Positions 3,796 to 19,654 of a stretch of DNA of 64,000 nucleotides are shown here, piece by piece. The notes beneath the pieces are model-generated. The model was not told the DNA's origin, did no database searches, and saw nothing but the letters and a program-made list of their open reading frames with translations. The stretch's first letter is position 1; each line of letters starts with the position of its first letter. The position numbers and the translations under genes are program-made. This stretch comes from a bacterium (GTDB lineage: Bacteria; Chloroflexota; Dormibacteria; Dormibacterales; Dormibacteraceae): contig SCQL01000031.1 of NCBI GenBank assembly GCA_004299235.1, positions 124,001 to 188,000 on the forward strand, given 5' to 3'.

Positions 3796-4131
3796 CTATT
3801 CCGGCCTGTTCCGCGGCGCATTGCCGGGATCACGTCCCAACGAACCCTGAATGCGACTCTCGAGGCGCCACATCCGCTCCTCACGCCAGACAGAGTCGAG
3901 GATCGCCTCCAGCTGGGTATGGAGGTCAGGAGGCGTCTTGCCTGCGGCCGGCGCGGTTGAGACTGTCTCATTGTCCAGGCTGATGGAGTCGAGGCTGACG
4001 GCTCCGGAAAGACACGCCAGATCGCGCATCCAGCAATCCAGCAGAGCCGCCACTCGCCGCCACGGCGAGTGTTTCGTCGATCGCCTCGATTTGGATCCGT
4101 GGTCGCGAGGCTTCTGTACCAGACCCGCCAT
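3796..4131 (-). CDS. Hypothetical protein, uncertain
   Basis: A 111-residue frame with ATG at 4131, ending 18 bp before the 63-aa gene on the same strand. The C-terminal half (LHTQLEAILDSVWREERMWR) looks like an amphipathic helix and is more protein-like than the basic N-terminus. No ribosome-binding site is obvious, and a shorter form from ATG 4029 is possible. It fills the divergent region before the response regulator and may be spurious. Confidence 0.3.
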   Translation of the reverse strand: MAGLVQKPRDHGSKSRRSTKHSPWRRVAALLDCWMRDLACLSGAVSLDSISLDNETVSTAPAAGKTPPDLHTQLEAILDSVWREERMWRLESRIQGSLGRDPGNAPRNRPE

Positions 4132-4219
4132 GGGAACCAGTTTGAGAACTTGGAGGACAGGTGTCGACGTACGAAGGAGGGCGGAGAATCTACCTCAATG
4201 GTACGTGGCGTTTAACGCA

Positions 4220-4657
4220 ATGGACCGGGACACTGGTACCCGCATGGACGCACAGCGCCTGGTTTCTGCGCGGCCGGTCCGTCGAGTTCGTGTCCTGGTC
4301 GCTGACGACGACCCCACGTTCCGCGCTGCCCTCGAGTACCTGCTGAACAACACGCCGGGAGTGGAGCTGGTGGCGGCGGCGAGCGACGCCGAGGTTGCCA
4401 TCCGCGATGCCTGCCGGCTGCTTCCGGACGTCGCCATCCTGGACGTGAAGATGCCTCAGGGTGGCGGCCCCCGCGCGGCGCGTGAGATCTTGCAGTGCTC
4501 GCCGCGAACGCGCCTGATCGCCCACTCCGTCTATCGTGACGTCGACAGTGTGCGCACCATGGCGGACGCGGGTTGCGCAACTTACCTCGTGAAGGGGCTC
4601 TCGGCTATGGGAGACCTGGTCAGTGCGATTCTCCGACCGGCTGCCGGCAAAGACTGA
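4220..4657 (+). CDS. Receiver-only response regulator
   Basis: 145 aa, one CheY-like receiver domain and no DNA-binding output. Acidic pocket DDD follows strand 1 (VRVLVADDDP), the phospho-acceptor Asp is in AILDVKMP, and the switch residues are Ser in LIAHSVYRD and Lys in TYLVKG. It overlaps the following histidine kinase by 35 bp, so the two are translationally linked and probably partners. A receiver alone could be a phosphate sink, a relay intermediate or an allosteric subunit. Start is uncertain: ATG 4220 and ATG 4244 both fit; an AAGGAGG at 4173-4179 is too far upstream for either. Confidence 0.8.
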   Translation: MDRDTGTRMDAQRLVSARPVRRVRVLVADDDPTFRAALEYLLNNTPGVELVAAASDAEVAIRDACRLLPDVAILDVKMPQGGGPRAAREILQCSPRTRLIAHSVYRDVDSVRTMADAGCATYLVKGLSAMGDLVSAILRPAAGKD

Positions 4658-6407
4658 GCCAAGCAGGCGGCCCAACACGGTTTCCGACCGGTTGAAGGCC
4701 GGGCTCGATGGCGCAGCGCTGTTGCTCCTCGCGCGGCGGGCGCTTCGGCTCGACGCGATCGCGCAGTGCACCGTCGACGAAGGGTGGGTTGACGTTAAAT
4801 TGGCCGCGAAATCCCGCGCCCCCGTGTCGAGCAGCCGCACACGAACTTGGCCCGCCCTGTCCCGGATGCTCGAGGAGCAGGAGGCGCACAGCCTGGTCGG
4901 AGAGGACCACAGCTCGACAGCCGCCGCGTTGCAGCCGCTTCCAGCCGGCTCGAGCTTGGCCGCAGCTCGTGTGGACGACCGCACGGTGATCATCGCTGGA
5001 CGCCGCGGCCGGTTCACGGCCCAAGACCTCCGTGACCTGCAGCTCACGGCGACCGCAAGCGGACTCGTCCGTCGAAATCAAGACTTGCTTGCCGACCTTC
5101 GACGCGGTGCGCGTGTTTCGTCTGACACCGTTCGGGCGCTCAAACTGCGAAATCGCCAGCAGCATGCCATCGCCGAATTGGGACTCATGGCCTCGTCGGG
5201 CGGCAGTGAGGAGCAGCTCATCGAGATGGCGGTCGATCAGGTCGCTGACGTGTTGCGAGTCGAGTTCGTGAAGGTGATCGAAGCCATGCCCGGAGGCAGG
5301 ACCGCCCGAGTGCGCGCCGGCATCGGCTGGCCGGAGGGCGTCGTCGGCTCCGACATCTCGATGGCCGACATTCCGCAGGCCGCGCTGGCCATGGAAACGA
5401 ACCGCTCCGCAGTGGTGAGAAACATACAGACCGATCGCCGGTTCAAACCCTCACGGTTCCTGATCGAGCATGGAATCGTCAGCGGCATCAGCTCGGTCAT
5501 CCGCGGGAAGACGGCCCCGTTTGGCGAGCTTGGGGTTCACTCCCCCCGCCTTCGACGCTTCAGCCGAGACGACGTGAATTTCGTGCGGGCGATGGCCAAC
5601 ACCTTGGCGGAGGCCATCACGGCGCGCCGCGCCGAGACAGAGCTGCGGAGCAGCCTGCAGGCTCTGCACCGGACTGCCGAAGAGCGCCATCGCCTGATGC
5701 GTCGCCTGGTCGACGCGGTCGAAGAGGAGCGCAAGCGCATCGCCGGCGACGTTCACGACGACTACCTTCAGGTGCTCGCCGCCGTGACCCTCCGCCTGGG
5801 GGTGCTCGCCCGCCAGATCCGGGACCCGGCCCGCAAAGAGATGATCGGGGGTCTCGCTCAGACGGTCGAGACGGCTTCGAACCGGCTGCGAGGGCTGATC
5901 TTCGAGCTCCGAGCGGACGCGCTGCAGGATGGCCTGGCCGCCGCGCTGCGCTCTTATCTCGCCGAGATCTGGGAGGGCGGGCCGGTCACGTGGTCCGTGA
6001 ACGATGAGAAGTTGACCGACGATCCGCCGCCCGACCTCCGATTGGTCGCCTATCGCATCTGCCAGGAGGCGATCTCCAACGTTCGCAAGCACTCTGGCGC
6101 CAGCCGCATGGCGATCACCCTTGCCAACGTCGATGGCGGCCTCCTGGCCGGGATCGCAGACAACGGCGCAGGCTTCGATGCGAAGGCGCACCTGCGGCCC
6201 CAGCCCGGCCACCTCGGTTTGGTGGCGATGCGCGAACGAGCTGAGCTCGCAAGCGGCTGGCTCCGCGTGAAAAGTCGAATCGGCAAGGGATCGAACGTGG
6301 AATTCTGGATTCCGTTCGAAGCGGTTCCCGAACCCCCGATGCCGCGACCGGAAGCGCGGCGGGCACGGCAACGCAAGCGCAACCGCGCCGAGTCAGCGAT
6401 CGATTAG
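4623..6407 (+). CDS. Cytosolic GAF-domain histidine kinase, NarX/DegS class
   Basis: 594 aa with no membrane segment. An unassigned N-terminal third (about 170 residues) is followed by a GAF domain (about 180-330), a coiled linker, a HisKA_3 dimerisation domain with phospho-acceptor His378 in RIAGDVHDDYLQ, and a HATPase domain with N box CQEAISNVRKHS and G box IADNGAGFD. HisKA_3 kinases normally phosphorylate NarL/LuxR-type regulators. One such regulator ends head-on with a 15-bp overlap (6393), and a close paralogue lies at 14490. The cytosolic GAF suggests a small-molecule or redox signal. The upstream receiver-only protein overlaps its start. Confidence 0.88.
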   Translation: MRFSDRLPAKTEPSRRPNTVSDRLKAGLDGAALLLLARRALRLDAIAQCTVDEGWVDVKLAAKSRAPVSSSRTRTWPALSRMLEEQEAHSLVGEDHSSTAAALQPLPAGSSLAAARVDDRTVIIAGRRGRFTAQDLRDLQLTATASGLVRRNQDLLADLRRGARVSSDTVRALKLRNRQQHAIAELGLMASSGGSEEQLIEMAVDQVADVLRVEFVKVIEAMPGGRTARVRAGIGWPEGVVGSDISMADIPQAALAMETNRSAVVRNIQTDRRFKPSRFLIEHGIVSGISSVIRGKTAPFGELGVHSPRLRRFSRDDVNFVRAMANTLAEAITARRAETELRSSLQALHRTAEERHRLMRRLVDAVEEERKRIAGDVHDDYLQVLAAVTLRLGVLARQIRDPARKEMIGGLAQTVETASNRLRGLIFELRADALQDGLAAALRSYLAEIWEGGPVTWSVNDEKLTDDPPPDLRLVAYRICQEAISNVRKHSGASRMAITLANVDGGLLAGIADNGAGFDAKAHLRPQPGHLGLVAMRERAELASGWLRVKSRIGKGSNVEFWIPFEAVPEPPMPRPEARRARQRKRNRAESAID

Positions 6408-7115
6408 ACCGAGCTCGGTCGCCTTCACCACCGCCTCCAGCTTGGAATGCGCGTCGAGCTTGCCGATCAGGTTGCGCATGTGCCCGCGCAACGTCGCGTA
6501 ACCGATGCCCATTCGCTCGGCCAGGGTTCGGTTGTCCAGTCCTTCGGCGGTCAATCGCAACAGTTCCCGCTCCCGCGGGGTGAGCTTGACCATCAGGTGC
6601 CCGAACTCGCCCTGGTCCGCGACCAGCTGGGCGAGGGTGGCGCTCGGAATCAGCATCTCGCCGCCTGCCGCTCGCCGAAGGGCGGACACCGTCTCGGCCG
6701 CCGATTGCGTCTTGAGCAGGTAGCCGCGGGCGCCCGCCCGAACCGCGGCGAACAGCATGGCGGGGCTGGAGACCACACTCAGGAAGACGACCACCACCCT
6801 CTGATGCTGCTTGCGCACCAGGCGTGCGACGTCGGCGCCGGTTCCATCGGGCAACCGGAAGTCGACCAGGAGCAGGTCGGGCTGGATTTTGGGCGCCAGT
6901 GCGGCCGCATCCGCCACCGATCCGACTCGTGCGATCACGTGCATGTCGCCTTCCGCGTCGATGAGCATCGTCAGGGCCTCGGCCACCAGCTGATGGTCTT
7001 CGACCAGAAAGATGTCGATGACCTTGCCGCCGGCGCCAGGACGGGCCTTGGCGGCATCGCCGCGGGGAGCTGTCGGGCTGATCGGGCCAACCAATGGCGG
7101 AACAGGACGGGCCAC
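6393..7115 (-). CDS. NarL/LuxR-family response regulator
   Basis: 240 aa. Receiver domain from IDIFLVEDHQ with phospho-acceptor Asp in LLVDFRLPDG and Lys in YLLKTQ; C-terminal LuxR-type HTH with KLTPRERELLRLTAEGLDNRTLAERMGI. The start is probably GTG 7115, because the frame continues upstream through the mug gene and residues before that point look non-native. It ends convergently into the kinase gene, overlapping by 15 bp. It is the likely target of that kinase. Its tail (KATELGLIDR) nearly matches the regulator at 14490 (RATELGLIDP), so the two are recent paralogues and may share a kinase or target sites. Confidence 0.85.
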   Translation of the reverse strand: MARPVPPLVGPISPTAPRGDAAKARPGAGGKVIDIFLVEDHQLVAEALTMLIDAEGDMHVIARVGSVADAAALAPKIQPDLLLVDFRLPDGTGADVARLVRKQHQRVVVVFLSVVSSPAMLFAAVRAGARGYLLKTQSAAETVSALRRAAGGEMLIPSATLAQLVADQGEFGHLMVKLTPRERELLRLTAEGLDNRTLAERMGIGYATLRGHMRNLIGKLDAHSKLEAVVKATELGLIDR

Positions 7116-7201
7116 CGCCGCCAAGTCTAATGCGACCTGGTCGCGGCTATTCGAGCGGTGCCTGGAAGGTTCGAGCACCGGGCGGAAAGCTGGGCAGAGT
7201 T

Positions 7202-10737: not shown

Positions 10738-12408
10738 TCAGCGCCTGGGCGGTCCCTGCGCCGGGGTCCTCCGGCGGGGCCGGAACCGGCCTTGGGTCGT
10801 GGCGGCGCCGGCCGCTCCGGCCGCGAGCGCGACGGCGATCAACGCGATCAACCATCGCGGGGTGACCGGGGGAGCCGATCCGAGGTTGTATTCGTAGACG
10901 CCGTCGCTGGTCGCCGCGACGAGTCGATCCCCGATACGCGCGACGTCCCAGGTCCCCTGCGGTAGTCCCGAGCCGAGGCTCGACCAGGAGCGAGCGCCGT
11001 CCGAGCTGAAGGCGACGCCACCCGGCACGACGGCAAACAGGCCCCCGGATGGTGGCGCCACCACCTCCGCCACGTGCGCGGCGTGGCCAGCGCCGTGGCT
11101 GTGGCCCGGCAGGCCGGACCCGGCGCGCCGCCAGGAGGCGCCGTCGTAGACGCTGACGCCGAGGCTGAAGGAGGTCGCGACCAGATAGTTCGCGTTCGCG
11201 GTCAGCGACACCACGCCGAGCTCATCCAGCACCCGCGTCCAGGTCCCGCCGGCGGCGTCCCAGCGGTAGACGCCACTGAGATCGCTCGCGTAGGGCACGT
11301 CCCGATAGAAGGCGATGGCATACGCGCCGTTCGGCTCCCGCAGCCCGGACGACTCATTCGTCCAGCCGTGGCCGAGCACCCACGCAAACCAGATGCCCGA
11401 ACCCGTGGCCACCCAACGCTCGTACGGATTGCGCGGATCGACGGCGACGGCCCGGACCTCGCCACCTGGAAAATGGTCTTGGGTGAGCGGCGCGGTCGCA
11501 TCGGTGGTGGTGAACAGGCCGGTGCTGGACCCCGCATAGATCGCGACCGGGCCGGAAGGCAGGGTCAGCGCCGAGATCGCGCCCGCCGGGACCAAATGCT
11601 CCGAATGTCCGCCTGGGGCTGCGGTCTGGGCGCCGGGCGCACCGTGGCTGTCGGCGCCTGACGGCCCAAGAAGATCAAGGGGATGCCATCGCCGCCCGGC
11701 GGAGTCGCCGACGTAGACGCCATCCCCGGCCGCCACCAGGTGCGCCCCATCGGGAGTGGACCCGATGCGGTCCAGCAGGACACCCTGCAGCCCGGCAGGC
11801 TGCCAGGCCCCGCCGGCGAGAGCCTGGGTCGCCGGCGCCACGGCGCGGGGAAACGGCAGCCAGAACACCGCCGGCAGCGCCGCCAGGGCGATGCCGGCCC
11901 ACAGGACCGAGCGGCTCCGGCCGGGACGTGTCCGCGAGAGGCGAGCGACGGCGCGGCGCCGATGGTGGAGAACGTGAAGCGTCGTCGGGACGAGCGACCA
12001 GACCGACGTCATCAGGTGCGCCTGGACGAGCGCTTCCCGCCAGCTCGCCCCCAGGGGCAGGATCGCGGCGAACCCGGTGAGGAAGACGGACGGGTAGAGG
12101 ATGACGAGGCTCAGGCTCACCCACCGCTGCCACAGCGTGAGGCTCGGCGCCGCGGCCACCTTGCGCTTGAATCCGACGCTCCAGACCTTCAGGGCGAAGA
12201 AGGCCGCCGCGGCGACGCCGACGTAGATGTGGACGCCGTCTATGAGTGCCAGGCGGACCGGCGAGGGAAGGCCGGCCCGCGAGGTGACGTACAGAAGGCC
12301 GGTGCCCCAGGTGATCCCGACAAGGACCACCAGCCCGATGCCCAGCGCGGCCAGCGACAGCGACGCCGGCCGCGAGCGGGGCGCAGGCAGGGCGGAGACG
12401 GCCGCCAA
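10738..12408 (-). CDS. b561-like membrane domain fused to an extracytoplasmic beta-propeller
   Basis: 556 aa in three parts. Residues about 15-185 hold four or five membrane helices with histidines placed as in cytochrome b561/DUF4405-type haem proteins (IDGVHIYVG; QAHLMTSV; TTLHVLHHRR). Residues about 195-520 form a beta-propeller of BNR/sortilin-like repeats (DGVYVGDSAGRRWHPL, TGLFTTTDA, GVYRWDAAGGTWTR, VAFSSDGARSWSSL) with His-rich loops (HSHGAGHAAH). A final helix (about 525-543) and an Arg-rich tail follow. Start is TTG 12408. It is the last gene of a set with a two-helix protein (5-bp gap) and a cupredoxin lipoprotein, so an electron-transfer or redox-sensing role at the membrane is likely. 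Haem binding is inferred, not proven. Confidence 0.6.
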   Translation of the reverse strand: MAAVSALPAPRSRPASLSLAALGIGLVVLVGITWGTGLLYVTSRAGLPSPVRLALIDGVHIYVGVAAAAFFALKVWSVGFKRKVAAAPSLTLWQRWVSLSLVILYPSVFLTGFAAILPLGASWREALVQAHLMTSVWSLVPTTLHVLHHRRRAVARLSRTRPGRSRSVLWAGIALAALPAVFWLPFPRAVAPATQALAGGAWQPAGLQGVLLDRIGSTPDGAHLVAAGDGVYVGDSAGRRWHPLDLLGPSGADSHGAPGAQTAAPGGHSEHLVPAGAISALTLPSGPVAIYAGSSTGLFTTTDATAPLTQDHFPGGEVRAVAVDPRNPYERWVATGSGIWFAWVLGHGWTNESSGLREPNGAYAIAFYRDVPYASDLSGVYRWDAAGGTWTRVLDELGVVSLTANANYLVATSFSLGVSVYDGASWRRAGSGLPGHSHGAGHAAHVAEVVAPPSGGLFAVVPGGVAFSSDGARSWSSLGSGLPQGTWDVARIGDRLVAATSDGVYEYNLGSAPPVTPRWLIALIAVALAAGAAGAATTQGRFRPRRRTPAQGPPRR

Positions 12409-12413
12409 TTTGC

Positions 12414-12614
12414 CTAAGCGCGCACCTGGCTCATGCGCCGAAGGCCCGCAAGGGCGAGCCCCGCGCCCAGGCCGCCGCCGAAGATGAGCCCGTGCTGGAT
12501 CCAGTGGACCACTGCGATCGTGTCCGCTGGGCCGTCAAGCATGAATTGGGCGATCAGCACGGTCAGCATGGCGACCGCAAATCCGATGACGGGCCAGCTG
12601 TTGCGACCCGGCAT
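12414..12614 (-). CDS. Small two-helix membrane protein with a HWIQH motif
   Basis: 66 aa. Two membrane segments (VIGFAVAMLTVLIAQFML and LIFGGGLGAGLALAGL) are joined by a short loop holding HWIQH. Start ATG 12614 overlaps the cupredoxin stop (TGATG), so translation is coupled. The two His residues at the membrane face could ligate a metal or haem together with the neighbouring b561-like protein. No known family. Confidence 0.65.
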   Translation of the reverse strand: MPGRNSWPVIGFAVAMLTVLIAQFMLDGPADTIAVVHWIQHGLIFGGGLGAGLALAGLRRMSQVRA

Positions 12615-13066
12615 CAGCTCACCACCAGGGTGCCGACCATGCCCAGCGCCTCATGTCCAGCGTAGGCACAGAAGAACGTGTAGCTGCCGGCCGCCAGCGT
12701 GGCCGTGAACGTGTCGGATTGGCCGGGGTCCAGGTCCTTTGAGTGGGCGATGATCTTGCTGCTCGAGTCGAGCGCGCCCTGCGGCGTCCTGATGTCGAAG
12801 TTGTGCGGGGTCTTGCCGTCGTTGGTGACGTGGAAGGTGACCTGGCCCGCAGGCAGGCTGAGCTTGGCCGGGGCGATGGAGAAGTCGAGGAGACTGACGT
12901 GGACGGCGCCTGCCGGTGCGGATGGATTGGCGGCTGCGGCGGATGGACTGGTGGCTGCGGCGGATGGACTGGCGTCCCCGGTCGGGGTCGCCGCACCGCA
13001 GGCGCCGACCAGCAACGCGACCACCAGCAACTGCAATAGACGACGAAGCGCGATCAACATTTTCAT
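12614..13066 (-). CDS. Cupredoxin (plastocyanin-like) lipoprotein
   Basis: 150 aa. A signal peptide ends in the lipobox LLVGAC; a Ser/Ala/Pro linker of three 7-residue repeats follows; then a cupredoxin domain. Type-1 copper ligands are present: His in TPHNF and the C-x4-H-x4-M group FCAYAGHEALGM. It should carry single electrons or store copper on the outer face of the membrane. It is the first gene of the tightly packed group leading to the b561/propeller protein, its probable redox partner. The lipoprotein gene upstream is separated by 69 bp containing a strong hairpin. Confidence 0.85.
   Translation of the reverse strand: MKMLIALRRLLQLLVVALLVGACGAATPTGDASPSAAATSPSAAAANPSAPAGAVHVSLLDFSIAPAKLSLPAGQVTFHVTNDGKTPHNFDIRTPQGALDSSSKIIAHSKDLDPGQSDTFTATLAAGSYTFFCAYAGHEALGMVGTLVVS
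12918..12980. repeat. Three tandem 21-bp units in the cupredoxin linker
   Basis: Units start at 12918, 12939 and 12960, each beginning GCGGATGGA(C/T)TGG. The first two differ at only two positions; the third diverges at its end. They encode 7-residue Ser-Pro-Ser-Ala-like units between the lipid anchor and the copper domain, so copy number would set linker length. Confidence 0.75.
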
Positions 13067-13088
13067 TCAACCTCTGGGTGAAGGTGTT

Positions 13089-13117
13089 GGCGGCCCGGGC
13101 TCGAAGCCCGAGCCGCC
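13089..13117 (-). terminator. Strong hairpin between lipoprotein and cupredoxin genes
   Basis: A 13-bp stem with one mismatch (GGCGGCCCGGGCT / AGCCCGAGCCGCC) and a CGA loop lies 18 bp after the lipoprotein stop. There is no U-run, so it may act as a partial terminator, an RNA-stability element or an attenuator that lowers expression of the downstream redox genes. Confidence 0.45.
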
Positions 13118-13135
13118 GATTGGGGGGAAGGAGTC

Positions 13136-14359
13136 TTACGAGGTGAACTTGGCCGGGAACTTCTTCACGAATGCGTCAGCCAGCGGGTCCGAGATGCTCT
13201 GCATGTCGTGGGCCGCGGTGCGGTCGTCGGTCGAGGCCTTGGCGAAGTCCTTGGCCCCCTGGTCGTCGACGATGGCCGCGGTGGTGGCGACATGGGTGGT
13301 CAAGAGACCGCTGAGCGCGTCCTGCGGAATGCCGGTGGCGCCCGCGAGGAAGGCGGCGAACGGTGTGATGAACTTGGCCTTCAGGTTGTCAGCGGCCGCG
13401 CCCTTCTTGGCGGAGTCCTTGGTCGCGACGCCGATGGTGTAGTCGACGAAGAAGCCGTTGTGGGCGCTCCACATGGCGTTGAACTGGTTCTGGGCGTCCG
13501 TCCCGTACAGCGAGCCGACCGCGGCGCCGATGTCGGTGCCGTTCGTGTTCAGAGCCGTCGAGGCAGCCACGAACTCGGGGTCGGTGGCGCCGTAGCGGAG
13601 CGCAGCGCTGGTGGCCATGCTCGCCAGGTACATGTGCTCCTGGAAGAGCTCATTCAGGCTGACACGCAGCTGGACGGCGCTGTTGGTGGCGTTGCCCGGA
13701 AACTTGGCGGGCAGCTTGGTTGAGATCGCACCGGCGAGCGCATCGCCGATCTTGTACACCTGCGCGTAGGCGGCGCGAAGGTCGGCGTAGGCCTTGGTGT
13801 AGTTCTTCGCCCCCTGGTCGTCAACCACCGCCGCGGTATCGACGACGTGCGTGGTGAGGACGTCCGTCAGCGCGCTCTCGGGCAAGCCCGTCGGCCCGGC
13901 GAGGAAGGCGGCGAACGGTGCGATGAACTTGGTCTTGAGGTTGGCGACCGCCTGGCTCTTCTTGGCCGCGTCGTTGGAGGCGACACCGACCGTGTAATCG
14001 ACAAAGAAGCCGTTGTGGGCGCTCCACAGGGCGTTGAACTGGTTCTGGGCGTCGGTCCCGTAGGCGGCTCCGATGAGAGCGCCGATGTCGGTTCCGTTCG
14101 TCCCGAGCAAATCCCCATAGGCCTTGAACTCGGGGTCACCGACCCCACCGCGGAGCGCCGCATCGGTCGCCTTGGCGGCAAGGAACATGTGCTCGCCCAG
14201 CAGGTTGTCGAGCCCAACCCGGAGATCGGCCGCCTTAGAGTCGGCCGAAACCGACGCGGGGCTCGAAGAGCTCGGCGTACTGGAGGCGCCGCCACTTCCG
14301 CAGGCCAGGGTCATGAAAACGGCCGCAACCCCTACGGCCAGGACCTTGAAGATTCTCAA
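13136..14359 (-). CDS. Lipoprotein with two tandem copies of a His-containing helical domain
   Basis: 407 aa. TTG 14359 is chosen because AAGGAG lies seven bases upstream and the product then begins with a clean signal peptide ending in the lipobox MTLACG. Two repeats of about 165 residues follow. Each contains EHM(F/Y)LA near its start, NGTDIGA, YGTDAQNQFNA(L/M)WSAHNGFFVDYT, and LTTHV...DDQGAK. The three conserved His per repeat (EHM, SAHN, TTHV) suggest metal-binding helical bundles. The 'NxxDIGxxxxxYYGxxAxNxxxxLxxxH' pattern recalls a poorly characterised short helical family common in Firmicutes; this is recollection. Context points to a redox or metal role outside the membrane. Confidence 0.7.
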   Translation of the reverse strand: MRIFKVLAVGVAAVFMTLACGSGGASSTPSSSSPASVSADSKAADLRVGLDNLLGEHMFLAAKATDAALRGGVGDPEFKAYGDLLGTNGTDIGALIGAAYGTDAQNQFNALWSAHNGFFVDYTVGVASNDAAKKSQAVANLKTKFIAPFAAFLAGPTGLPESALTDVLTTHVVDTAAVVDDQGAKNYTKAYADLRAAYAQVYKIGDALAGAISTKLPAKFPGNATNSAVQLRVSLNELFQEHMYLASMATSAALRYGATDPEFVAASTALNTNGTDIGAAVGSLYGTDAQNQFNAMWSAHNGFFVDYTIGVATKDSAKKGAAADNLKAKFITPFAAFLAGATGIPQDALSGLLTTHVATTAAIVDDQGAKDFAKASTDDRTAAHDMQSISDPLADAFVKKFPAKFTS

Positions 14360-14489
14360 GTCGCTTCTCCTTACAAACAGATGGGTGATGATGACTGCGA
14401 TCCACTTTGGGCCGCCAACGGCACCGCTGTCGACGTACTGGCGGGTGTGGTTTGGCACCCTCAACTGAGGTACGTCGCCGGCGCCGGGA

Positions 14490-15194
14490 TCACTCCATCC
14501 GCACGGGAGCTGTGTCAGGGTCGATCAGGCCGAGCTCCGTAGCCCGCACAACGGCCTGCAGCTTGGTGTGGACCTCGAGCTTGGCCAGGATGTTGCGAAC
14601 ATGGCTGCGCACGGTCCCGTACTCGATCTCGAGCGCTTCGGCCAGCTCGTGGTTGCTCAGGCCGCGCGATATCAAACGCATGATGTCTCGTTCCCTCGCC
14701 GTCAAAGTGTCGACGAGGTGGGTCTGTTCGCCCTTCTCTTTGATCAGCTGAACCAGCACCGCTGGTGAGATCAGCATCTCGCCCGCGGCCACTCGCCGGA
14801 CCGCGGCGGCCAGAGTGGCGGCCGCCTGTGACTTCAGGACATAACCTCTGGCTCCAGCCTGAATGGCCGCCATCAACGCGGCCGGACTGTCGACGGCGCT
14901 CAAGAAGAGCACTGGGAGGCGAGGCCGGCTTCGCCGGATCGCCGCGGCGGCCTCCGCCCCGTTGCCATCAGGCAGCCTGAAGTCTGCGATCAGAACATCG
15001 ATCTTGGTCTCCGGCGGCAGTGCCGCCGCCTCGTGAACCGTACCCACGATTCCGATGACGCTGATGTCCGGTTCCTGGCTGAAGAGGAACTCGAGGCCGG
15101 CGGCCAGGACCGGGTGGTCTTCAATGATGAGAAGACGCAGAGTGCGCGTCGCCGGGGCGGCGGCGGCAGCGGGGCGAGCGATTGTGTTCTCCAT
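14490..15194 (-). CDS. NarL/LuxR-family response regulator (paralogue)
   Basis: 234 aa. ATG 15194 has GGAGGT upstream. An Ala-rich N-terminus precedes the receiver domain (LRLLIIEDHPVLAAG; phospho-acceptor Asp in LIADFRLPDG; Lys in YVLKSQ), then the LuxR HTH (TLTARERDIMRLISRGLSNHELAEAL). No kinase gene is adjacent. Sequence closeness to the regulator at 6393 suggests it may be served by the GAF kinase at 4623. It is 130 bp upstream of the helical lipoprotein on the same strand, making it the likely regulator of the redox cluster, and diverges from the PTS operon. Confidence 0.85.
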   Translation of the reverse strand: MENTIARPAAAAAPATRTLRLLIIEDHPVLAAGLEFLFSQEPDISVIGIVGTVHEAAALPPETKIDVLIADFRLPDGNGAEAAAAIRRSRPRLPVLFLSAVDSPAALMAAIQAGARGYVLKSQAAATLAAAVRRVAAGEMLISPAVLVQLIKEKGEQTHLVDTLTARERDIMRLISRGLSNHELAEALEIEYGTVRSHVRNILAKLEVHTKLQAVVRATELGLIDPDTAPVRME

Positions 15195-15414
15195 AGAGCT
15201 GGGCACCTCCGGTTGATCTTCCGCGGCAGGTTGTCCGCACCCTCCACATTGATCCCGGCATCCGGCGATGTCCACGTACTACCGGCGCGGACCTGCTCCC
15301 CCCCAACTGAGGTGGTCCGGTAGAGGGGCTCTGGCCTCAGGACCGCCATGCCTCATATGTGGGAGTCCCATTTGTGCCCGGGGTACGGCGACGGCGAGAA
15401 GGGCCGGCCAGACA

Positions 15415-15747
15415 ATGGACGCAAATGCCTACGCAAAAACTTCGAGCACGACGGCGCCGATGAAGATCCTTGCTGTTTGCGGCATGGGACTGGGGAGCAG
15501 CATGGTGCTGAAGCTGACGCTCGGCAAAGTTCTCGCGGAGCTGAAACTCAAGGCGGACGTCGAGGTCACTGACATCAGTAGCGCCAAATCTCAATCGGCC
15601 GATCTGATCGTCACCTCGGCCGAGCTGGCACAACGCCTGAGCGACAGCCGCGTTCCCATCATCGCGATCAAGAACTACGTCGACAGAAAAGAGATGAAAG
15701 AGAAGCTCTTGGCCGTCCTTGATCACGACCAAGTCAAGGAGGGTTGA
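15415..15747 (+). CDS. PTS EIIB component, ascorbate/Ula-like
   Basis: 110 aa. The phospho-cysteine lies in the P-loop LAVCGMGLGSS, as in EIIB proteins of the ascorbate (Ula) and galactitol families. It passes phosphate from EIIA to the incoming sugar at EIIC. ATG 15415 has GAAGGG upstream; ATG 15460 would give a form starting MKILAVCG and is the alternative. First gene of a five-gene PTS operon. The sugar is not known, because no ulaD/E/F-type enzyme is next to it. Confidence 0.82.
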   Translation: MDANAYAKTSSTTAPMKILAVCGMGLGSSMVLKLTLGKVLAELKLKADVEVTDISSAKSQSADLIVTSAELAQRLSDSRVPIIAIKNYVDRKEMKEKLLAVLDHDQVKEG

Positions 15748-15751
15748 ACCC

Positions 15752-17125
15752 GTGGTCGTACTTCAGTTCATAGTCGACGAGATCCTGAGCAAGCCGGCCC
15801 TGCTGGTGGGGCTGATCGCCCTGATCGGTCTGCTCGCGCTGCTCAAGAGTCCAAGCGACATCCTGACCGGCTCCCTCAAGACAATCCTGGGCTTCATCAT
15901 CCTGATCGGAGGCGCGGGCATCCTGGTCGGCTCCCTGACTCCGCTGGGCAACATGATCCAGTCCGGCCTCCACCTGCATGGCGTGGTACCGACCAATGAA
16001 GCCATCGTCGCCCTGGCCCAGAAGGCGTTCGGCGCCGAGACGGCGGTGATCATGGCGGTTGGATTCCTCATCAATCTGGTCCTGGCGCGCGTCACCCCGG
16101 CCAAGTTCGTCTTCCTGACCGGTCACCACCTTTTCTACATGGCAACCCTGTTCGCGGTGGTGCTGGGTTCGGCGAACATCACCGGGCTCAACGAGGTGGT
16201 ACTCGGCTCGGTCATGCTCGGCACGATGGCGTTGGTCATGCCCGCGTTCACCTACCCGTTCATGCGGAAGCTGAACGGCGACGCCGGCTTCGCCCTCGGC
16301 CACTTCAACTCTCTCGGCTACATCGTTTCGGCTCTCGTCGGCAAGGTGGTCGGCAAGGGCAGCCGCAGCACCGAGGAGATCCACGTCCCGGAGAGGGTGA
16401 GCTTCCTGCGGGACAGCCTCGTGATGACGACGATCGTGATGATCGCCTTCTATCTCGTCTTCGCTTTGATCGCCGGACCTGGCGCTGTGGCCAAGGACGC
16501 CGGCACCGGCAACTATGTGATGTACGCCTTCACACAGGCCCTCACCTTCGGTGCGGGTGTGGCGGTGATCCTCCTCGGAGTCCGCATGGTTCTGGCCGAA
16601 ATCGTCCCGGCCTTCCAGGGCATCGCCGAAAGGTTCGTCCCCAGCGCGATGCCGGCCCTGGACTGTCCCACCACGTTTCCATACGCTCCCAACGCCGTCG
16701 TCATCGGGTTCATCAGCAGCCTGGTCGGCGGCCTGGTCGGGCTGCTGCTGGTCGGTCCCATCGGCCTGGCTCTGATCATCCCGGGGATGGTCCCGCATTT
16801 CTTCGACGGAGGCACCGCCGGAGTCTTCGGCAACTCGACCGGCGGACGGCGGGGCGCTGTGATCGGCTCTTTCGTCAACGGCCTGCTCATCACCTTCCTG
16901 CCCGCCCTGCTGCTCAGCTTCCTCGGCGGTCTTGGGCTGGCCAACACGACTTTCGGCGACTCCGACTTCGCCTGGGCCGGCATCGCGGTCGGCATCTTCG
17001 CCAAGACCGGGATCGTCGGCGCGTACGCCATGACGCTGGTCTTCTGCGCGGTTCTGGTTGCCGTCGCGAGCTGGATCTCCGTGCGCCAGCGCACTGGCAA
17101 GGAGACGATTGAAGTTGCAGCGTGA
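15752..17125 (+). CDS. PTS EIIC permease, UlaA family
   Basis: 457 aa integral membrane protein with about eleven hydrophobic segments. Family-like stretches include KTILGFIILIGGAGILVGSL, FLTGHHLFYMA and DCPTTFPYAPNAVVIGF. It forms the sugar channel and presents substrate for phosphorylation by EIIB. GTG 15752 follows AAGGAGG with nine bases of spacing. The UlaA family mainly carries L-ascorbate, but distant members may carry other sugars or sugar acids. Confidence 0.85.
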   Translation: MVVLQFIVDEILSKPALLVGLIALIGLLALLKSPSDILTGSLKTILGFIILIGGAGILVGSLTPLGNMIQSGLHLHGVVPTNEAIVALAQKAFGAETAVIMAVGFLINLVLARVTPAKFVFLTGHHLFYMATLFAVVLGSANITGLNEVVLGSVMLGTMALVMPAFTYPFMRKLNGDAGFALGHFNSLGYIVSALVGKVVGKGSRSTEEIHVPERVSFLRDSLVMTTIVMIAFYLVFALIAGPGAVAKDAGTGNYVMYAFTQALTFGAGVAVILLGVRMVLAEIVPAFQGIAERFVPSAMPALDCPTTFPYAPNAVVIGFISSLVGGLVGLLLVGPIGLALIIPGMVPHFFDGGTAGVFGNSTGGRRGAVIGSFVNGLLITFLPALLLSFLGGLGLANTTFGDSDFAWAGIAVGIFAKTGIVGAYAMTLVFCAVLVAVASWISVRQRTGKETIEVAA

Positions 17126-17654
17126 CCAGTCGCCGGCTGACCCAGAGGTTGCGGCCGCGTCCACGGAATCGACCGTGGAGCGGCCGGCGGCGGACGGACT
17201 GATGGATCTGCTCACTGAACGAACGATCCGGCTGCGCGCCCACGCGTCGACACCGAACGAAGTCATCGACGACGCCGCCAGCCTGCTCATCGCTGAAGGT
17301 GGAATCGAGGACCGCTATGTGAAGGCGATGAAGGCAAGCCTGGCCGTCAACGGCCCGTACATGGTGATCGTGCCCGGCGTGGTGCTGCTCCACGCCAGGC
17401 CGGGGGATGGCGCCGTCAAGCTCTGCATGAGCTTGATCACCCTCGATCCGGGCATCGCCTTCGGCAACCCCGACAACGATCCCGTGACGGTCGCCATCGC
17501 CTTCGCGGCCGCGGACAATCACAGCCACCTGAACGCCCTGGCCAGGCTGACCACCTTGCTCAGCAACGAAGCGGCGATGGCCGCCCTGCGTGAGGCCCAC
17601 ACGGTGGAACAGGCGCTGGCGGCCATAGCGGACGGCAGCCGGCCGGAAGCCTAG
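17109..17654 (+). CDS. PTS EIIA component, mannitol/fructose-Ula type
   Basis: 181 aa. A TTG at 17109, five bases after CAAGGAG, overlaps the permease gene by 17 bp; the domain itself begins near the Met of GLMDLLTERTIRLRA. The phospho-His lies in VVLLHARPGDG. It takes phosphate from HPr and passes it to the EIIB cysteine. The first 30 residues are poorly conserved and could be trimmed if ATG 17202 is used. Confidence 0.82.
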   Translation: MKLQRDQSPADPEVAAASTESTVERPAADGLMDLLTERTIRLRAHASTPNEVIDDAASLLIAEGGIEDRYVKAMKASLAVNGPYMVIVPGVVLLHARPGDGAVKLCMSLITLDPGIAFGNPDNDPVTVAIAFAAADNHSHLNALARLTTLLSNEAAMAALREAHTVEQALAAIADGSRPEA

Positions 17655-17678
17655 TGCCCCCGAGAAGGAGCTTCAAGC

Positions 17679-17939
17679 ATGCCACGAGCTAGGGTCACCA
17701 TCCAGCGAGGCGCCGGTCTCCATGCGAGACCGGCCGCCGAGTTCGTGAAGCTCGCCAATCGCTTCACGGCTTCGACCAAGGTGCGCTTGAACGGCCGTCA
17801 GGCCGACGCCAAGAGCATTCTCGGCATCCTCGGTCTCGGCGCCAACGGCGGTGCCGAGGTGGAGCTTGAAGTCGAAGGCGAGGATGCCGAACCGGCGTTG
17901 GCCGCGCTGCGGGACTTTCTGGAGACCCCCACCGAATGA
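17679..17939 (+). CDS. ptsH: Phosphocarrier protein HPr
   Basis: 86 aa, normal length. The active His is in RGAGLHARPAAEFV, and the regulatory-serine region is KSILGILGLGA, so Ser is present although no HPr kinase gene is seen here. GAGAAGGAG precedes the ATG. The stop overlaps the ptsI start by four bases (ATGA). Confidence 0.93.
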   Translation: MPRARVTIQRGAGLHARPAAEFVKLANRFTASTKVRLNGRQADAKSILGILGLGANGGAEVELEVEGEDAEPALAALRDFLETPTE

Positions 17940-19654
17940 GGGTGAGCACGAAACTGCGCGGCATCGCGGCCTCACCCGGAGTGGTGATCGGTCGGGCCGT
18001 GGTGATCGGAGCCTCGTCCTTGCGCGCCGGCTCGCATGCGGAATCCGGCAAGGCGGCGATCGAGCGCTGGTCCTCCGCCCGCGAAGAGGTGAAGGCGAGC
18101 CTGGAACAGCTCGTGCGGGCCGCCGAGCGAAACTCCCTGGTCCAGGAACAGGCGCTGTTGGAAGCCCAGCAGATGATGGTCATGGACCCGGGCCTGGAAG
18201 AGTCGGTACGGGCGATGGTGCTCGGCGGAACGTCAGCTGAGCGTGCCACGCACGACGCGATCGAGCGGTACGCGGTGGCGATGGACCGCTTCGAGGACGC
18301 GTACCTGCGCCAGCGCTCGTCGGACGTTCGCGAGATCGGCCAGGCCCTCCTCCGCGTGCTGGCCGGGCAGTCGCCGTTTCCGATCGCCAACCTCGCGCCG
18401 GGATCGGTGCTCTGCGCGGCCGAGCTCGGCGCGGCCAGCCTCCTGATGCTGGACCGGGCGGCATTGGCCGGCATCGCATTGGGATCTGGTGGGCCGACGT
18501 CACACGTTGCGATCCTGGCTCGTTCCTGGGGTGTACCCGCGGTTCTGGGCATCACCGGTCTCCTCGACACGGTCTCGGAAGGTGATCTGCTCGCGCTTGA
18601 CGGCGGGCGCGGCGAGCTCTGGGTCCAACCCTCAGCCGACGAGCAGGCCCGATTGGAGGCCAATGCGCAGAAGTACTCTCGGGACAAGGCGGAACTGACC
18701 GCGCTGCGCGACCGGCAGGCGGTCACGGTCGATGGCGTCCGCGTCGAGCTGCTGGCCAACATCGGAGGGCCTCAGGATGTCGTCGCCGCGCTCGAGGCCG
18801 GCGCGGAGGGCGTGGGCCTGTTTCGGACGGAGTTCCTGGTCACCGGGCGGCGAGCCGTGCCGTCGGAGCGGGAGCAGCGCGAGATCTACGGCCAGGTGCT
18901 CGAGGGCATGGAGGGACGCCCGGTCACGGTTCGCACCTTCGACATCGGCGGCGACAAGCAGGTCCCCGCACTCGACCTGAAACCGGAGCTGAATCCCTTC
19001 TTGGGGTACCGCGGGATCCGCATGGGCCTCGATCGGCCCGAGCTCCTCGCCACCCAGTTGCGAGCCCTGCTCACGGCTGCCGCGGGCGGGCCTCAGCTCA
19101 AGGTCATGCTGCCCATGATCTCGACGCTGGACGAGGTCCGGCAAGCCCGCGCGATCCTGGACCGGGCGCGCTCAGAACTCGGACCCGGGTCAGGTGATGG
19201 AGTCCTTCTGGGCGTCATGATCGAAATCCCGGCGGCCGCGCTGCTGGCGAGTCAGCTCGCCCGCGAGGTGCAGTTCTTCAGCATCGGGACCAATGATCTG
19301 ATTCAGTACACGATGGCCGCCGACCGTACGAACGATCGAGTCGCACGGCTGTATCAGCCCTTCCACCCCGCGGTGCTGCGCCTCATCGGCCAGGTCGCCG
19401 CCGCTGCCACCGGGGCCGGAATCCCGTGCGGGGTGTGCGGTGAGATGGCCGGCGATCCCAGAGCGACGGCGCTGCTCCTGGGACTTGGCATCCGTGAGCT
19501 GAGCATGAGCCCTGGATCCATCGCGGCGGTCAAGCGCCAGGTCTTGCGCATCCAGCTCGCGGACGCCCAGCGATTGGCCCAGGATGCCCTGGAAAAGGCG
19601 ACGACGCGCGAGGTCGAGGGCCTTGTGGATGCGTTCCTCGCCCGGCTTGCCTGA
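17936..19654 (+). CDS. ptsI: PTS enzyme I (PEP-protein phosphotransferase)
   Basis: 572 aa, full length. Phospho-His in GGPTSHVAILARSWG; PEP-binding elements NPFLGYRGIR and FSIGTNDLIQYTMAADR; active-site Cys in CGVCGEMAGD. It takes phosphate from PEP and loads HPr. Its place behind the sugar-specific components makes the operon a self-contained phosphate chain. Transcription probably ends at the hairpin 40 bp downstream. Confidence 0.94.
   Translation: MRVSTKLRGIAASPGVVIGRAVVIGASSLRAGSHAESGKAAIERWSSAREEVKASLEQLVRAAERNSLVQEQALLEAQQMMVMDPGLEESVRAMVLGGTSAERATHDAIERYAVAMDRFEDAYLRQRSSDVREIGQALLRVLAGQSPFPIANLAPGSVLCAAELGAASLLMLDRAALAGIALGSGGPTSHVAILARSWGVPAVLGITGLLDTVSEGDLLALDGGRGELWVQPSADEQARLEANAQKYSRDKAELTALRDRQAVTVDGVRVELLANIGGPQDVVAALEAGAEGVGLFRTEFLVTGRRAVPSEREQREIYGQVLEGMEGRPVTVRTFDIGGDKQVPALDLKPELNPFLGYRGIRMGLDRPELLATQLRALLTAAAGGPQLKVMLPMISTLDEVRQARAILDRARSELGPGSGDGVLLGVMIEIPAAALLASQLAREVQFFSIGTNDLIQYTMAADRTNDRVARLYQPFHPAVLRLIGQVAAAATGAGIPCGVCGEMAGDPRATALLLGLGIRELSMSPGSIAAVKRQVLRIQLADAQRLAQDALEKATTREVEGLVDAFLARLA

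Follow-up and report, generated by a model that had tools for sequence, protein, structure and literature searches.

It was found that five genes lie side by side on the minus strand, from position 15194 down to 10738, of the window, the 64,000-nucleotide stretch of DNA that was analysed in this study. The source assembly, from the class Dormibacteria, is 2.87 Mb in size and 97% complete. The products are given below in gene order, with HEL as a short name for the duplicated helical lipoprotein.

14490..15194, minus strand: NarL-type response regulator, with an ATG start at 15194 (PF00072, 2.1e-20; PF00196, 1.5e-16)
13136..14359, minus strand: HEL, 407 aa, with a TTG start (14359) after AAGGAG, a lipobox (C20) and two repeats; His positions 57, 115, 171 and 200 in repeat 1 and 242, 300, 356 and 385 in repeat 2
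12614..13066, minus strand: cupredoxin lipoprotein, 150 aa, with a lipobox (C23) and type 1 copper ligands
12414..12614, minus strand: two-helix protein, 66 aa, whose helix 2 carries H37-W-x-Q-H41 at the end predicted to face outward; it resembles the His hairpin of CtaG
10738..12408, minus strand: b561-propeller fusion, 556 aa, with a b561-like membrane domain (about 18-185; H60, H131 and H145), an outside propeller of the F510_1955/YCF48 kind (about 195-510) and a C-terminal membrane helix (about 517-540)

All five genes have coding-type codon use (GC3 of 0.77-0.88). The gap is 130 bp between the regulator gene and the HEL gene and 69 bp between the HEL gene and the cupredoxin gene. The stop codon of the cupredoxin gene overlaps the start codon of the two-helix gene by 1 bp, and the fusion gene begins 5 bp past the two-helix gene. 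Thus, the preliminary description was right about the five genes on one strand and about the tight spacing of three of them (coupled or within 5 bp). It was also right that all products except the regulator are exported or membrane-bound. Divergent from the cluster, an apparently complete PTS operon (IIB, ascorbate-type IIC, IIA, HPr, and enzyme I) lies at 15268-19654 on the plus strand, as judged from the sequences only.

The five genes had been taken for a single system. This did not hold in the relatives, since the regulator gene is not conserved with the rest, and a co-transcribed five-gene system was therefore ruled out. Judging from the gene orders compared, the cluster is two conserved pieces, HEL with the cupredoxin and the two-helix protein with the b561-propeller fusion, which meet at the cupredoxin. 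The search for the same gene order in relatives, proposed earlier, recovered these two sub-modules, both touching the cupredoxin gene, but not the regulator. Among the genomes searched, all four exported or membrane genes occur together in this genome only. As a complete system, the four genes may thus be local, but the two halves are not. The cupredoxin of the Dormibacteria locus G018, where it precedes the other sub-module, is 33% identical to the window cupredoxin, while the HEL-linked copies are 36-47% identical; thus, the joining of the modules at the cupredoxin may have happened more than once. The cupredoxin itself is as claimed in the preliminary description. It has the full His-Cys-His-Met set of type 1 copper ligands (H88, C133, H138, and M143) and matches two Pfam models above their cut-offs, PF13473 (4.7e-13; 49.5 bits, cut-off 27) and PF00127 (6.3e-10; 39.8 bits, cut-off 21.2).

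The regulator has both a receiver domain and a GerE domain, as expected for the NarL/LuxR type. Relatives of the cluster have other regulators, more often a pair of an ECF sigma factor and an RskA-type anti-sigma factor. With a HEL profile, I scanned 84,980 species, each represented by a single genome; this gave 382 confirmed relatives, and the best 80 of them were analysed. Among these best 80 of 382, 55 loci have an ECF sigma or anti-sigma gene near the HEL gene. The anti-sigma factor is of the RskA type, and many Bacillota loci also have a class F sortase gene. Outside this genome, HEL is probably under ECF control, and the response regulator beside HEL is a local feature. Elsewhere in the window, a response regulator gene and a NarX-like histidine kinase gene (3851-6407, plus strand) face a second NarL-type regulator gene (about 7100 to 6393, minus strand), which is a paralogue of the cluster regulator gene with 65% DNA identity. 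This region (3851-7130) is a possible source of the missing kinase for the cluster regulator.

Full-length relatives of the b561-propeller fusion were found in 8 of the 110 genomes of the class, its own genome included. In the haem-ligand scheme of cytochrome b561, His residues lie in TM1, TM2, and TM4. The TM2 His (H60) and the first TM4 His (H131) are present in all seven orthologues whose N-terminus is available, and the H-x13-H motif of TM4 (H131 and H145) in five of them, the His at the end of TM4 having been lost in G370 and G367. A TM1 His is absent from the window fusion and from the seven orthologues, so that the full set of b561 ligands is not there. The matches to PF03188 are all under the cut-off of 23 bits (12.1 bits and E 0.24 for the window; 22.9 bits and 1.1e-4 for the best orthologue). 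Thus, the b561 assignment made earlier is retained only in part: the fusion resembles Cytochrome b561 and DUF4405-type domains in the TM2 His, the TM4 motif and the sub-threshold profile matches, but it has one complete bis-histidine site and, unlike them, a propeller attached. The positive-inside rule would place the propeller at the outer face, together with two His residues of the fusion (H60 and H131) and two of the two-helix protein (H37 and H41). It was also considered whether the His at the end of TM4 and the His residues of the two-helix protein share one site, as G370 and G367 lack the one as well as the other; this idea was set aside because they are predicted to lie on opposite faces. 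In G172, one protein (L070, 4866-6020) combines a b561-like membrane domain of this kind with a molybdopterin oxidoreductase domain (PF00174, 1.2e-30).

By profile, the propeller appears to belong to the F510_1955/YCF48 group, below the family cut-offs. The model NF045728 (F510_1955 glycosylhydrolase) gives 21.1 bits for the window propeller and 50.1 bits for that of G217, under its cut-off of 175. The nearest solved structures are BNR-type propellers. An AlphaFold2 model of the b561-propeller protein alone was discarded (pLDDT 43). Like Ycf48/HCF136 and the F510_1955 propellers, the propeller is predicted to lie outside the membrane, but the fusion is anchored in the membrane at both ends. 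The window propeller has an insertion of about 27 residues (residues 247-273; 11590-11670, minus strand) with three His residues, which is absent from all seven orthologues.

The two-helix gene lies directly upstream of the b561-propeller gene in five of the seven Dormibacteria loci with upstream sequence, by six-frame reading: the window, G018, G194, G217, and G361, but not G370 and G367. The G018 locus has the order cupredoxin, two-helix, and b561-propeller, as in the window. A two-helix profile, when run over 400 genomes, matched only the b561-propeller loci and one further protein (E 3.6e-5), which proved to be a Caa3_CtaG protein (2.5e-63). The two-helix protein aligns to the CtaG helix pair that carries H-x-x-Q-H (hhalign probability 68%; E 4.8e-5 in one comparison). 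In the other direction, when 18,665 ORFs were searched with a CtaG profile, the two-helix proteins came out first, though weakly, with E values from 0.007 to 0.26 for the orthologues and 1.3 for the window copy. Five unrelated membrane families, used as a control for CtaG likeness, scored at most 1.2%. There is no full-length PF09678 (Caa3_CtaG) match in the two-helix protein; the hairpin alone is similar, and the similarity is short and moderate. CtaG, a copper-site assembly factor, is polytopic and belongs to an oxidase operon, while the two-helix protein has only two helices and is encoded beside the b561-propeller. On the alignments, the best description of this protein is a free-standing His hairpin of the CtaG type rather than a CtaG. 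A true CtaG is encoded on another contig of the same genome, and CtaG is present in 39 of the 41 relatives searched. CtaG has been described as supporting the function of copper sites, and in Corynebacterium glutamicum it is joined to CopD in a fusion protein (PMC13344008).

The neighbours of the fusion orthologues include BlaI/M56, CsoR-family, ArsP/YHS, CcdA, TlpA, Rieske, and DUF2933-like genes; TlpA, CcdA, and DUF2933-like companions surround the orthologues in G217, G194, and G367. In G018, a molybdopterin oxidoreductase gene precedes the cupredoxin gene. A soluble YCF48-related propeller on proteobacterial plasmids is accompanied by varying sets of TlpA, CcdA, cytochrome c, SCO, DUF411, DUF2933, and metal P-type ATPase genes, and one such set adjoins a mercury operon. 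The window propeller itself had no match on a plasmid, but the propeller of a relative did. The metal islands on the plasmids of Halomonas (pHAL1), Jiella pelagia, and Burkholderia contaminans carry the same kind of propeller with TlpA, CcdA, and DUF2933-like genes, within sets of DUF411, TlpA, CcdA, YCF48-related, cytochrome c, and DUF2933 genes. These companions are also found around a soluble propeller in a groundwater Chloroflexi contig, L096. In contrast to the window propeller, which is fused to the membrane domain and lies with the two-helix protein and the cupredoxin, the island propeller is soluble and paired with cytochrome c. TlpA and CcdA genes adjoin the island propeller gene but not the window cluster, which is therefore not a member of such islands. 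No TlpA, CcdA, DUF2933, or DUF411 gene was found next to the window cluster; the contig does carry a CcdA-like gene, but at a distance of 32 kb. No copper-specific gene was found adjoining the cluster within the window.

In the preliminary description, electrons or copper were to pass from the cupredoxin to a haem membrane protein with a propeller that senses or binds an outside partner. Of this, a link to copper is supported. The context in the relatives suggests copper or metal handling and thiol-metal redox, rather than plain electron transfer to a haem sensor. The latter would mean that electrons are exchanged between the cupredoxin and the haem of the b561-like protein, so that the membrane quinone pool is connected with a redox partner outside. 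The complete type 1 copper site and the likeness of the TM2 His and the TM4 motif to b561 haem ligands agree with such a chain, as do the fusion of a similar membrane domain to a molybdopterin oxidoreductase in G172, the oxidoreductase gene ahead of the G018 cupredoxin gene, and the pairing of soluble propeller relatives with cytochrome c. However, the missing TM1 His leaves only one complete haem site, the His at the end of TM4 is also lost in two of the seven orthologues, and the CtaG-like hairpin and the CsoR, BlaI, and ArsP neighbours would go unexplained. I consider this chain rather unlikely. It is still less probable that the cluster is an assembly set for one cuproenzyme such as a terminal oxidase, in which the two-helix protein and the propeller would hold an unfilled site while the cupredoxin and HEL deliver copper. 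The CtaG-like hairpin, the YCF48-like propeller, the TlpA and CcdA genes near the orthologues, and the SCO family gene beside soluble propellers would fit. In contrast, there is no oxidase gene next to the cluster, the genome already encodes a CtaG elsewhere, on a different contig, and the fusion is far rarer in the class than CtaG is among the relatives searched.

HEL was found in 29 of the 110 genomes of the class, all within the window's own family. Four His residues in each repeat are kept in 41-42 of the 42 aligned sequences, together with an invariant Trp and Tyr. A Glu precedes the first His in 40 and 38, and a Met follows the last His in 39 and 42, of the 42 sequences (repeats 1 and 2, respectively). 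The pattern is best read as that of a predicted metal site. The window HEL has Q200 and D385 at the fourth His positions, with a His at 384, and is the only one of the 42 in which the fourth His is replaced in both repeats; its metal site may be altered. The AlphaFold2 model, made with the 42 sequences, has two repeats of six helices each (pLDDT 92, pTM 0.88). A Foldseek search of the PDB gave no fold match (best E 0.09; TM-scores below 0.3), sequence searches of the PDB with two HEL profiles gave nothing convincing, and no Pfam or NCBIfam model scores over its cut-off for the window HEL or for Bacillota members. Among viral models, Foldseek matched a single repeat to predicted proteins from uncultured phages and from Bodo saltans virus (TM-score 0.76-0.77 by target), which have no assigned function. 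A tblastn search for HEL in phages found none.

Some Bacillota and plasmid copies of HEL are labelled as a copper amine oxidase. This label was rejected, since none of the HEL proteins tested, the window HEL and a Bacillota member among them, showed an amine oxidase domain. WP_065524945 of Planococcus versutus, which bears this label, is a true homologue that shares the His positions; Bacillota homologues such as this are 33-38% identical. The lipoprotein form with a cupredoxin is a variant of Dormibacterota, Chloroflexota, and Actinomycetota. A second HEL of the same genome (L080, 7560-8777; G000:C33) is 39-40% identical and has lost several His residues of the second repeat. Its setting of aminotransferase, 5'-3' exonuclease-like protein, and ECF sigma genes is conserved in the family.

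The copper link proposed for the cluster recurs in other phyla. Among the best 80 of the 382 relatives, a cupredoxin gene lies within 400 bp of the HEL gene in 14 of the 21 non-Bacillota loci, in three phyla, and in one Planococcus locus. Apart from these, the flanks of the 80 loci together gave only five cupredoxin matches. A plastocyanin-type gene adjoins HEL on a Planococcus plasmid. Three Exiguobacterium loci have CopC-like and CopD-like genes directly downstream of HEL, as read from sequence. Most Bacillota HEL genes in this set of 80 do not adjoin copper genes. On the HEL tree, the window HEL is one of ten sequences in a clade with full support; its members come from Dormibacterota, Chloroflexota, and Actinomycetota and are cupredoxin-linked without exception. 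The cupredoxin link is far more clustered on this tree than in shuffles. Within the class, a cupredoxin gene follows every HEL gene of 54-59% identity (one in G026 and two in G027); most HEL copies there are of a paralogue type of about 40% identity, in another setting. It is very improbable that HEL acts in stress at the surface or cell wall, has no role that involves a metal and lies near copper genes only by chance: this would suit the many Bacillota copies that lie with ECF sigma/anti-sigma and class F sortase genes, and the different neighbours of the second HEL of this genome and family, but not the repeated cupredoxin pairing in three phyla, the Bacillota copper genes, the well-supported clade and the near-invariant His residues. 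In the L096 contig (4356-11277), HEL with a cupredoxin and the soluble YCF48-like propeller lie within 7 kb, so that counterparts of both cluster halves are in one place. Between the cupredoxin and the propeller are TlpA-like, DUF2933-like, possible CopD-like membrane protein, and AhpC-like genes.

I therefore favour, with a confidence that falls just short of even, an extracytoplasmic cassette for copper handling and copper redox, in which two older modules would be joined at the cupredoxin. The HEL-cupredoxin pairs, the ten-member clade, the CopC-like and CopD-like genes and the conserved His residues of HEL argue for it, as do the position of the two-helix gene in five of seven loci and the CtaG likeness seen in both directions. 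So do the CsoR, BlaI/M56, ArsP/YHS, CcdA, and TlpA genes near the orthologues and the similar plasmid sets. Against it count the lack of an adjoining copper-specific gene, the restriction of the four-gene set to one genome, Q200 and D385 of the window HEL, the short and moderate CtaG likeness, and the distance of most Bacillota HEL genes from copper genes.

In the first module of this copper cassette, two lipoproteins would be placed outside the membrane. HEL, as a duplicated helical bundle, would bind a metal, most likely copper, at the His-rich site of each repeat, and the type 1 copper protein would exchange copper or an electron with it. In the second module, the CtaG-like His pair of the two-helix protein would lie in the membrane at the outer face, beside the bis-His site of H60 and H131. 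The outside propeller might dock a partner or client and cover the open metal site; Ycf48, the best-studied propeller of this kind, does so in photosystem II assembly for a metal site that is still unfilled (PMC10403576). The cupredoxin would move copper, or an electron, between the two modules. The purpose may be the loading of a cuproenzyme or the control of copper redox state under stress; the metal, the direction of transfer, the protein contacts, and the topology are likewise predicted. A bolder version, possible but held with clearly less confidence, is that HELs are new exported metalloproteins with four-His sites and a fold unmatched in the PDB, wired through the cupredoxin to a new hairpin/b561-propeller machine for inserting copper, or oxidising it, on the outer side of the membrane.

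The HEL family, the free hairpin and the b561-propeller fusion are undescribed in the libraries and papers searched, which include few subscription journals, though their parts are near known kinds. The literature searched also contained no account of the HEL-sortase-ECF and YCF48-DUF411 gene sets. The free hairpin suggests that the His hairpin of CtaG could act as a separate subunit. Such a hairpin would help to isolate the copper role of CtaG, which was left open in a 2026 study of B. subtilis (PMC13344008). HEL adjoins copper proteins in four phyla and spans hundreds of species, partly misnamed as an enzyme and with no Pfam or NCBIfam model or PDB fold match. Thus, this large family could gain its first function from a simple metal-binding assay.
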